A DNA stretch of 31,084 bases from Thraustochytrium sp. TN22. Its lineage: Eukaryota; Sar; Bigyra; Thraustochytrida; Thraustochytriidae. This document shows, one piece after another, positions 26,450 through 30,674 of the stretch. The stretch spans positions 1 to 31,084 of the forward strand of contig JABLUY010000338.1 of NCBI GenBank assembly GCA_013306675.1, read 5' to 3'. The stretch's first letter is position 1; every line of letters starts with the position of its first letter. The notes under the pieces are model-generated. The model was not told the origin of the DNA, made no database searches, and saw only the letters and a program-made list of their open reading frames with translations. Made by a program: the position numbers and the translations under genes.

Positions 26450-27463
26450 TCAGATAAAGCCGCCCGTATCGACAAAGCCGCCCTGGCCCTCCTTGAGCGG
26501 AACCTCGTCCGAGTTGATCTCCATGAGGTGGCGCTCGATGAGCGCAAGCTTATCCTGCAGCACCTTGAGCGCGGAGAAGACGGCCTCCTCGGGCTTGAGC
26601 GCACCGGTCGTCTCGACCTCGAAGATGAATCGGTTGGGCGTCTGCGTGACCGAGACAACGTTGTCCTCTTCGTGGCTACGCTTCCATGTCTCGCCGAGCT
26701 TGACACACTCGTCGCAAAACATGCATGCGCTGCGCTTAGCGACGGTGATCTTACCGGTCTGCTGATCCAGCTTGTACACCCCGGTCGGACAGGACTCGAC
26801 GAAGTCCTTCTTTTGCGTGTCGTTAAGCTCGTCGACCAAGACGTCATTCAGCTCAATGACCGGGTCGTACGCAAAGGTGGCCACGCTGACTGGGCACCAC
26901 TTGGCGTGGATCTTGCTAATGCCCTTAATGGCAATGCACTCCACTTTGAGGCGCTGACCGGCGCCCAGCTTGACGATGGTGATACCAGACGGCAGGTCCG
27001 GGTTCGTGTCGCGCACAAACTCGTCCTCCTCAAGCGAGGAGTACTGCACGGCCTCGGCCGCATCCGACTTTAGGTCCGCGCTCGTCACGATACGCACCGC
27101 CTCTTCCGGGTCGTCGTGCGAGACGTCCAGCGTGAACTTGACCGAGCACCGCGGGCACATGGACTCGCAGAAGCAGTCCTGCTTATAGTTCATGCCAGCC
27201 ACGCCCTCTTGCGACGTGATGCGGATCGGGATGAGACCCAGCCGGTGCGCGATGAACTCGTCGTGCAGCGCCGTCGAGTTCTCGTGGATCGTCACCAGGT
27301 CGATCGCCACCGTCGGCACCTCCGCGATCAGCGTCCGCCGCAGCGCGTTCGCCATGCTAGGGTCGCATCCGGTCAGTACAAACTTGATGTAGTCCTCCTT
27401 CAGCTCCAGCACCTCCACCTTCGGGTCCCGCGCGCTGCGCGTGAGCGGCTTCGACTGCTCCAT
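26450..27463 (-). CDS. RPB3: RNA polymerase II subunit RPB3
   Basis: The 337-residue product (human 275, yeast 318) opens with the alpha-like dimerisation domain: KVEVLELKEDYIKFVLTGCD, MANALRRTLIAEVPTVAIDL and HRLGLIPI. The RPB3 zinc site is intact: Cys97, Cys99, Cys103 and Cys106 in CFCESMCPRC. The second half has the alpha-like AKWCPVSVATFAYDP and a Cys-rich CMFCDEC. It ends with the dimerisation helix PEEAVFSALKVLQDKLALIE. RPB3 pairs with RPB11 to nucleate Pol II assembly in the nucleus. ATG 27463 begins MEQSKPLTRSARDPKVEV and there is no intron. The tail ends with a short Gly-rich stretch. It is divergent from PHF5A. Confidence 0.97.
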   Translation of the reverse strand: MEQSKPLTRSARDPKVEVLELKEDYIKFVLTGCDPSMANALRRTLIAEVPTVAIDLVTIHENSTALHDEFIAHRLGLIPIRITSQEGVAGMNYKQDCFCESMCPRCSVKFTLDVSHDDPEEAVRIVTSADLKSDAAEAVQYSSLEEDEFVRDTNPDLPSGITIVKLGAGQRLKVECIAIKGISKIHAKWCPVSVATFAYDPVIELNDVLVDELNDTQKKDFVESCPTGVYKLDQQTGKITVAKRSACMFCDECVKLGETWKRSHEEDNVVSVTQTPNRFIFEVETTGALKPEEAVFSALKVLQDKLALIERHLMEINSDEVPLKEGQGGFVDTGGFI

Positions 27464-27490: not shown

Positions 27491-27640
27491 CGGCTCCTGC
27501 CGCTGCCGCCGCCCGTCGCCGCCGCCGCCGCCGCGCGCGCGCCAGCCGCCGCCGCCGCCGACGCCGCCGCCGCCGGCCCCGCCGCCGCCGCCGCCGCTGC
27601 CGCCGCCGCCGCCGCTGCCGCCGCCGCCGCGCTCGGGCTC
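27491..27640. repeat. (CCG)n/(GGC)n trinucleotide-rich tract
   Basis: CCG triplets dominate, with GCC, CTG and CGCG interruptions. The minus strand is G-rich with many GGCGGC runs and could form G-quadruplex or hairpin structures in the RPB3 promoter or 5' UTR. Confidence 0.85.
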
Positions 27641-27678
27641 TGCCGCTCCGCTGCTGTCGCCGTAAAAATCGGCAGCCG

Positions 27679-27688
27679 CATAAAATAC
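27679..27688 (+). promoter_or_regulatory. TATA-like element CATAAAATAC, PHF5A promoter
   Basis: A short A/T-rich island lies in a G+C-rich region about 200 bp before the conserved start of PHF5A, identical to the 10-mer at 12556. Confidence 0.5.
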
Positions 27689-27886
27689 GCGTAGCTTATT
27701 CGATCGCCGTCGTGACGGGACTCGATCAAATCAGAGTCGGAATCGAAGGGCGTGAGCGCGCGCGCGCGGCGGCTCGCGCGGGCGGCCCGGACAGGCGGCG
27801 CGGCGCGGCGCGGCGCGGCACGAAGCGGGGTGAAGGCTCGCTGCGCGTCCTGGGACGCAGCGGACGCGGAGGCGGCGGCCGGCGCC

Positions 27887-28222
27887 AGGGCGGCCAAGCA
27901 CCACACGGACTTGGTGCTCTGCCGGAAGCAGGCGGGCGTGTCGGTGGGCAAGGTCTGCGACAAGCACGACGGCCCGTGCCCCATTTGCGACTCCTTCGTG
28001 CGGCCTGACACGCTGGTGCGCGTCTGTGACGAGCACAATTACGGGTCCATGCAGGGAAAGTGCATCATCTGCAACGCCGCCGGCACGGCCGAGGCGTACT
28101 ATTGCAAGGAGTGCTGTGTTCAGGAGAAGGACCGCGACGGCTGCCCCAAGGTCATCAACCTTGGTACCTCGCGTGCCGACAATTTTTATGAGCAGCGCAA
28201 GTACGGCTTCACGAAGCGGTGA
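27887..28222 (+). CDS. PHF5A: PHF5A/Rds3, SF3b subunit; start codon not ATG
   Basis: The product is about 111 residues if begun at 27887 (human PHF5A 110) and is near-identical in pattern: [54 protein letters not shown] and the end [15 protein letters not shown]5A is the zinc-knot protein of the U2 snRNP SF3b complex. With SF3B1 it forms the pocket that holds the branch adenosine. The codon at the conserved Met position is AGG, in the context GGCGCC-AGG-G, a perfect Kozak site except for T to G. No ATG lies on this strand between 27472 and 28047. Human Cys26 and Cys49, both zinc ligands, are His here (CDKH, CDEH). Cys40 is Asp, Tyr36 is Phe, Lys29 and Val31 are Pro. An upstream exon supplying the start, or a base error, cannot be excluded. 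Confidence 0.92.
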
Positions 28223-29099
28223 TCGAGCTCTCCACGGTCACGTTTCAGCGCTTCAACACGAGCGCAGCAGCATTACAACATGCGCTCCATATGTGCGAGC
28301 GCTCCATCTGTACAAGCGCTTCATCGGTACGCGCGCTCTATGCGCCTCGGCCGTGATTTGCAGAGGATGCTATTTTCTAGCGAGGTGGGTGTGGCTCTCA
28401 CCTCAAACGCAGACGACTCAGACAGCCAAGGACATTCTCGATGGACATGGGAACCCAACTCATATCGAGCGGAGATGGCTGGGCGTCGCGGGGTTGCCGG
28501 CCGTCCTGTGAGTGGAAAGGCACAGCCAACAGCAGGCCAGAGGCGGGGCTATATGTTCTAAAACTCTCCGCGGGCGTGGAAAACTCTCTGATGAAGGGTC
28601 GCGACAGTCTTCGCGCATTTACTCTCAAAGGATATCACATGGCGTGGCAGGGCGCCACGTCACGCCACACAACGCTGCGCCGCGCTCCAAGACATAAATA
28701 CGCGATGTCTCCTCATCCTCCTCATTCACAGCAGCAGCAGCGACAGCGACAGCGCCAAACTAATGTCATTCGGCCCCGGCGTGCGCGTACCTGACGGAGT
28801 CTAGCTCGGAGGGCCAGTCAGAGTGTCGGCGACGAGGCGACCCATTGGGGGGCACTTGTGGTGGTGCCATGAACCATCCATTCCTGTCGCATGGACGGGA
28901 CTGTACCCCTCGAGACACTTGCTCTGGTGTCGGGTAGGCAGCCCTCCGAAAGGTATGGCGCAAAACGCTTCACGCAAGTATTCGTGGAGCTCGTCCTCTT
29001 CAAGTCGCTCTCATTTCGACAAGCCGCGCCGGTTTTTCGTGTACGTCGGTGTCTTTTGTAGGTTTTGAGTGAGTAGAGCTCAGATGCTTTGATGGCCTG
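28223..29099. other. Intergenic region after PHF5A, no confident gene
   Basis: This stretch includes the PHF5A 3' UTR, with a loose repeat of GCGCTCCAT/GCGCTTCAT-like words at 28246-28360. It also has a short hairpin at about 28640 (CGTGGC/GCCACG) and a TATA-like site at 28693. Short open frames on both strands (for example 28823-29068 +) have no recognisable content. Confidence 0.5.
28693..28701 (+). promoter_or_regulatory. Orphan TATA-like element CATAAATAC
   Basis: A + strand TATA-like site is followed by a pyrimidine-rich stretch and CAGCAGCAGCAG, then an ATG at 28763 that opens only ten codons before a stop. A donor-like GTACCT follows. It may mark an unrecognised transcript or be chance. 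Confidence 0.25.
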
Positions 29100-30330
29100 C
29101 TAGCTAGCGTACAAAGGAATGCCCCGCTCCTCGTCCGCCGGGGCGGAACGAGAGGACGCGGCAAGAAAAAGGAGCGAACGCTGCTGCTTGTCGCTCCTCG
29201 CGTTCTCGCTTACCGGATCCGAGCTGTGTTTCAGGTCTGCTTGCGGCCGCCGGAGGATAGGAGCGACTTGGTTCTGGCCTACGAGTTGGTTGGGCGCTTC
29301 CACGTAGAAGCTCGTGCTCTACAACCCTGGCGAAGAGGACGTCAACCACTGGCGACCACTTGCCGATTCTAGCGACCTCCTTTCTTGGCAGCCAGAACTC
29401 GCCCCGCGTCACGCGAGCCTTCTCCGGCGCAACCGGTGCGGAGTTGGTCGACGGGCTCTTGGACGACGCCGCCGACGGAATCTTGGACGATGCCGTCGAC
29501 GTGCCCTTGTATGATGCCCCCGAGCCCCGTCCGGCATTCTGAAACGATGCTGGCTCGACATACGTTGCGCCTGCCGCCGCGTTGCCTTCCATGGCTTCTC
29601 CGGCGCAGGCCCGACCTTGACGTTCACGCGAAAGACGCGGTTGCGGGCGGGTACGGCGTTCTGCTTCTCTGCGAGTGCAACCTCCCGTGCGACCACCGTG
29701 ATATCGCGGCGGGCGGCGCGCGCGCGGCCGACGATGTCTGCAGCGCTAGGGCCTGCATCAAGCGTGGCACTGGAAAATGCCGCACTCTCCAGGGAGCCGA
29801 CGGAAAGGCATGGCAAGCTTGCCGGGAGGTCGACTCCGCGTAAGGTAGCCGGCGACGTCGCTCGTGACCTCCGCCTCGAGGCCTCCGAACCCCTCTACCG
29901 GTGTGGCGGCGTACAGACTCGTCCTACGCAGCCTGCACTACCCTTACTACCTCACCACACCCCCCCCTTCCGTTTGCTACCTGTGCCTTCTCATTCGACG
30001 GCTCGGGATGCTGGTGCTCAGTTGGTCACATGAGTAGCGCGCAGGGGCTGCGTCTCGCGAGTCATTCAGCACAAGATGTTGCACGCTCTTGACGTGTGGC
30101 ACGAACATAGTCGCCCGGACAGGGATAACTACGTCGTGATCCTCTGGGTCAGCATTCAAGAGGGCGAGGCTTTCAACTTTGAAAAGAGAACGGCCGCCCG
30201 CGTTAACACCTGAGACTACCCATACGACGCTGCTGCCCACGACGGCCCCCCACGACGGCGACCCCCACGATGGCTTCCCTCCGACGACGGTGCCGCCCAT
30301 GACGCCCCCCCTCCCCCCCAACATCATCGC
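29100..30330 (-). pseudogene. Coding-like remnant in several frames, unrecognised and apparently broken
   Basis: On the minus strand, successive stretches read like ordinary protein but in changing frames, with no single frame spanning them. Examples are FKVESLALLNADPEDHDVVI, ATMFVPHVKSVQHLVLNDS and DITVVAREVALAEKQNAVPA. The composition is less G+C-biased than that of the active genes nearby. No domain was recognised. It may be a decayed host gene, a decayed mobile element, or a real multi-exon gene. It looks broken in a handful of places if not spliced. Some short frames on the + strand overlap it. Confidence 0.3.
30232..30312 (+). repeat. Minisatellite of CCCACGACGGC-like units
   Basis: Diverged 9-13-bp units such as CCCACGACGG, CCCACGATGG and CCGACGACGG recur about six to seven times. 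In the minus frame they read as Pro-Ser-Trp-Gly/Val-Val-Gly repeats. The array lies at the upstream end of the broken minus-strand remnant. Confidence 0.65.
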
Positions 30331-30674
30331 TCACCACTGCGGAGTGCGGCTGGAAGTAGTTCAACAACTGTCGCTGGCGGCAGCGAGAGCCGCGCGTGTA
30401 CACGCCCCGGCCGCCAGCGCGCCGGCCGACTCAGAGTCACAGCCGCAAGCGACCAAGTTCTCTCAAGCGGCCGCCGGCGCCTATTAGTACTACCGCCGTC
30501 ACGTCAGGACGGAGTGAGCGACACTTCAGCCAGCCAGGCCCGGCCCGGGCCGCCCCGAGCCACTGACAGTACTTTCCGCCAGCCCATGTGCCGTGCGGCC
30601 ACCGCGACAGAGTTGTGCACGGCTGCCACCATGAGCACTGCTGCAGCCTGCGTGTGCAAGGGCCGCAAGCCACC
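30331..30674. other. No gene seen
   Basis: This G+C-rich stretch lies between the minisatellite and the partial + frame. Open frames exist on both strands, but none has a recognisable product. Confidence 0.4.

Follow-up and report, generated by a model that had tools for sequence, protein, structure and literature searches.

Histidine at two zinc-ligand positions of the SF3b subunit PHF5A in Thraustochytrium sp. TN22

PHF5A (SF3b14b/Rds3) of Thraustochytrium sp. TN22 has histidine at two positions where the human protein has zinc-binding cysteines, which raises the question of whether the gene specifies a three-zinc protein with mixed ligands, a protein that has lost metal sites, an altered branch-site pocket, or a decaying copy. 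The window, i.e., the whole stretch of DNA analyzed (31,084 nucleotides of contig JABLUY010000338.1, assembly GCA_013306675.1), has a GC content of 65% and long open frames, and the gene for PTHB1 (BBS9) was also found. The PHF5A coding region is located at 27887–28222 on the plus strand as a single open frame that includes the stop codon TGA and has no ATG; in translation, it reads as PHF5A from the second codon through TGA. The protein was matched to PDB chain 5syb_A (E = 1.9e-53) and to the Pfam family PF03660 (E = 1.3e-44, 151.1 bits, cut-off 26.7, profile positions 2–104 of 104), which was the only Pfam family in this copy, with no further domain. The family match of the predicted protein is far above chance, and the identification as PHF5A made in the sequence-only reading was upheld by both searches.

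Residues are numbered as in human PHF5A; one is added for the TN22 protein, which starts with MAA (MA in human). The PHF5A proteins compared from the PDB were human and yeast only. The six substitutions relative to human that had been listed earlier (C26H, K29P, V31P, Y36F, C40D, and C49H) were all present in the translation. Human PHF5A (5SYB and spliceosome entries) has 74 of 110 aligned residues, the length, 10 of the 12 ligands, and an aromatic residue at position 36 in common with the window protein, whereas TN22 has His at Cys26 and Cys49, Pro or Leu at Lys29, Phe36, and Asp at Cys40. Position 40 is a non-ligand residue, being Lys in yeast and, in the crystal construct, Ser. Yeast Rds3 (2K0A, 5GM6) is identical at 52 of 106 aligned residues and also has Pro31, but it has twelve Cys ligands, Lys29, and Tyr36. 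Human and yeast are identical at 59 of 106 aligned residues, and the earlier description of PHF5A as nearly invariant from yeast to human was therefore too strong: by these comparisons, the family is well conserved, yet not nearly invariant.

A second PHF5A copy was found on contig C213 (3331–3666, minus strand). It has ATG at the start, where the window copy has AGG (27887–27889, plus strand) and so lacks the start codon expected of a working gene; the first in-frame ATG of the window copy is codon 55. Counted from its ATG, the C213 protein has 111 residues, in agreement with the PHF5/PHF5A length (about 110). The two proteins are identical at 109 of 111 residues and differ at the start codon and at human position 29, where the window copy has CCG for Pro (27974–27976, plus strand) and the C213 copy has CTG for Leu. 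Both His residues and Phe36 are carried by the C213 copy as well. The assembly (37.9 Mb, 453 contigs) was searched with the protein and with the PF03660 model, and just these two copies were obtained, with no third or all-Cys PHF5A. The standard PHF5A that was sought as a challenge to the earlier claim was thus not seen in the assembly: a second copy exists, but it has both His. The AGG start and the existence of two copies had been overlooked in the sequence-only reading. Most likely, the working PHF5A gene is the ATG-bearing C213 copy, and the window copy is probably silent or poorly translated, although non-AUG initiation may occur there. The loss of its ATG looks recent.

In human PHF5A, as described in passages of Teng et al. 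(2017; PMC5458519), there are three zinc fingers and five CXXC motifs. Motifs 1 and 4 form finger 1, motifs 2 and 5 form finger 2, and motif 3 combines with two single Cys in finger 3; motif 1 includes a short turn of helix, and motif 3 derives from a helix. Rds3 is described as three GATA-like fingers in excerpts of PMC7614390 and PMC4999995. When the motifs were counted along the human sequence under the topology given in those passages of PMC5458519, the CAC codon at 27965–27967 (plus strand) placed His at Cys26, the second residue of CXXC motif 1 in finger 1, and the CAC codon at 28034–28036 (plus strand) placed His at Cys49, the second residue of CXXC motif 3 in finger 3, so that two of the three fingers are changed at an equivalent position. 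On this topology, ligands of two different zinc sites (ZnF1 and ZnF3) are replaced, as had been proposed. Of the 12 zinc-ligand positions, both copies have Cys at 10 and His at two, unlike the three Cys4 sites described for human and yeast, and each His-bearing site has Cys at its other three positions. Histidine is the other common zinc ligand. Both His residues occupy the second ligand position of a CXXC motif with helical structure, one in finger 1 and the other in finger 3, which favours retained Cys3His sites over decay. The protein likely has Cys3His ligands at two sites and Cys4 at the third, with zinc bound by the His residues. We know of no Cys3His precedent in the PHF5A/Rds3 family, and no Cys-to-His PHF5A was found in the titles and abstract openings on PHF5A, SF3b14b, and Rds3 listed from one open-access library. 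AlphaFold, run on the two own-genome copies, gave a mean pLDDT of 39.2, too low for a usable model of the fold.

Alternatively, the same substitutions could have weakened or abolished zinc sites 1 and 3. His26 and His49 would then be non-ligands, and the fold would depend on site 2, the knot, and the SF3b partners. We consider this unlikely, since both swaps are to a common zinc ligand at an equivalent place in two fingers and the other ten ligands are kept, including the three that remain in each affected site. It is nevertheless in line with passages of the review PMC7614390, in which the ligand Cys of the Rds3 alignment are called absolutely conserved, and with the BUD31 protein of TN22 (C321:109591–110004), which keeps four of the nine zinc-cluster Cys (LCST, SVC, and GCRGC, counted on the human chain) and indicates that spliceosomal zinc sites can shrink in this organism. 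In yeast BUD31, the nine Cys hold three metals (as given in part of PMC7614390). Chlamydomonas BUD31 (chain N of PDB 8XI2, the Chlamydomonas spliceosome according to an excerpt of PMC11833078) retains the identical four Cys, so a reduced BUD31 is not unique to the TN22 genome. Chlamydomonas BUD31 is thus a further spliceosomal zinc protein with altered ligands, but it is a different protein from PHF5A, and its Cys were lost and not swapped for His.

Three other proteins of the genome were inspected for Cys or His motifs that we take to be zinc ligands, and these were present in YJU2 (CAEC and CSRC), U1C (C2H2 pattern), and RPB3 (CFCESMCPRC). Zinc ligands were therefore altered in two of the five proteins examined (PHF5A and BUD31), and a genome-wide loss of zinc motifs was rejected because the motifs of YJU2, U1C, and RPB3 are intact. 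It is doubtful that the spliceosomal zinc sites have been remodelled as a set, with two swaps at equivalent positions in PHF5A, a reduction from nine to four zinc Cys in BUD31, and fewer thiolates overall. If this were true, the remodelling might reflect adaptation either to the supply of zinc or to oxidation within a cell that contains much polyunsaturated fat.

At human Tyr36, the aromatic residue of the branch-site and modulator pocket, the window has TTC for Phe (27995–27997, plus strand; translation and human comparison). It had been suggested that the branch-site pocket is altered, and a check for SF3B1 residues that co-vary with Phe36 had been proposed. A lineage-specific SF3b pocket that handles substrates or drugs differently would fit Phe36 and the Pro or Leu that stands at position 29 instead of Lys. 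Lys29, which is reported as acetylated in colorectal cancer in part of PMC10362332, is absent from both copies, a genuine difference from human, whereas Pro31 is the yeast residue. Against a changed pocket, the Y36F and Y36W mutants of human PHF5A had a very minor protective effect and group with the wild type in the available passages of PMC5458519. Neither a small or charged residue at position 36 nor a change at SF3B1 1071, 1074, or 1078, by which the modulator-resistant type is recognized in those passages, was found. The SF3b partners that were sought, SF3B1 (C190) and SF3b10 (C26), are both present. In the alignment with human SF3B1, which covers frame residues 310–1133 and was numbered from the offset between chains u98831 and u83267, the pocket residues checked (K1071, R1074, and V1078) are unchanged. 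One U2 snRNA was found (C53), with GTAGTA in TTGTAGTATCTGTTCT, a branch-site sequence that we take to be standard. Nothing at the checked sites thus co-varies with Phe36, the suggested alteration was not supported, and a changed pocket appears very unlikely. Separately, human Lys700 of SF3B1, a cancer hotspot, is aligned with Gln in TN22 (L010:1134–4661).

The window segment 27664–31084 is duplicated on C213 (3895 to 461, opposite strand). Substitutions between the two amounted to 3.5% in 27664–27889, 1.2% in 27890–28222, and 8.0% in 28223–30400, and the difference between the coding region and the 3' flank was significant (Fisher p = 2.2e-7). Three codon changes between the copies are synonymous and one is non-synonymous, in addition to the start codon; with the start counted, this corresponds to 3 of 72 synonymous and 2 of 258 non-synonymous sites, a weak synonymous excess (Fisher p = 0.07). 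Low coding divergence with few, mostly synonymous differences points to constraint on the His-bearing protein, and gene conversion could also account for the low divergence; judged from these counts, constraint or conversion has probably acted on PHF5A during most of the period after the duplication. RPB3, an RNA polymerase II subunit encoded by the divergent neighbour of PHF5A (26450–27463, minus strand), has no second copy on C213, and its sole other match in the assembly, on C427, has an identity of 33%. A Ras-family GTPase gene, not RPB3, is located upstream of PHF5A on C213. RPB3 and the SF3B1 PF08920 domain were each found a single time in the assembly. Together with the Ras-family GTPase gene, this led us to reject allelic versions of the same locus and to interpret the pair as a segmental duplication.

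A contig end is found about 3 kb away from each PHF5A copy, so the assembly may be faulty in these regions. The AGG, the nearby contig end, and the diverged 3' flank of the window copy might suggest that its His codons arose by drift in a pseudogene or through sequence error. This is extremely unlikely, because the ATG-bearing C213 copy has the identical two His codons, which largely refutes drift for them, and because the copies show few coding differences, most of them synonymous. Moreover, turning a Cys codon (TGC or TGT) into CAC takes no fewer than two substitutions, and this applies to two codons, each of them in both copies. With both His in both genome copies, the change is not the decay of a single copy, as had been argued earlier on other grounds.

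Several features were observed around the duplicated segment and elsewhere in the genome. RPB3 and PHF5A are divergently oriented, and the interval between them contains a long GCC/CCG-rich tract (27499–27650); the C213 homology stops just beside this tract, which may mark the duplication breakpoint. A dispersed element of about 150 bases (29089–29246) occurs in at least nine further places besides the window and C213 copies, with 71–77% identity. Two hairpins were predicted within it at 29110–29200 (z-score −2.5), and an Rfam search of the window gave no match. A frame of 3044 aa, which together with its neighbours scores 2539.7 bits (cut-off 1010.1), represents a polyunsaturated fatty acid synthase of the PfaA type and is adjoined by a 2083-aa frame on the opposite strand. 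Along with the GC content, the long open frames, and the PTHB1 gene, this synthase fits a thraustochytrid. At C410:25857–39995, a single open frame of 5691 aa has repeated matches to the PfaA model (about 176–473 and 2095–2267) and is probably a giant multi-module synthase.

Sequence collections were also searched for PHF5A. In viral contigs, no pattern match was obtained with the PHF5A protein, and an alignment that included human PHF5A gave 38 pattern matches, none of which was confirmed; in prokaryote genome contigs, the same alignment gave 138 pattern matches, again with none confirmed. The DNA pattern for EKDRDGCPK was not found in viral contigs, and that for EKDRDGCP was found in six stretches of genome contigs, all from prokaryote MAGs, with a convincing PHF5A in none of the six. 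No PHF5A was detected in phages and plasmids by tblastn. As these collections consist of viruses and prokaryotes, the absence of PHF5A is expected and is uninformative on protists.

Taken as a whole, the locus is quite probably explained by an SF3b PHF5A of TN22 in which two of the three zinc sites have changed from Cys4 to Cys3His with normal function, the window copy being a start-less duplicate. Zinc sites 1 and 3 would have been turned into Cys3His sites, and the protein should take the usual knotted scaffold with three zinc ions. His26 and His49 each take the second ligand position of a pair carried by a helix within a GATA-like finger, where they could bind zinc with the backbone barely changed. 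PHF5A would then, jointly with SF3B1, accommodate the branch-point adenosine and function as PHF5A does elsewhere. The window copy would be one half of the segmental duplication, its ATG probably lost recently.

The TN22 protein is a genuine sequence variant of a known SF3b subunit, with its function most likely conserved, and it gives no pointer to a new branch-site pocket. A PHF5A with two His residues would reveal which ligand positions tolerate change, and the variant would serve tests of how the knotted three-zinc fold holds together.
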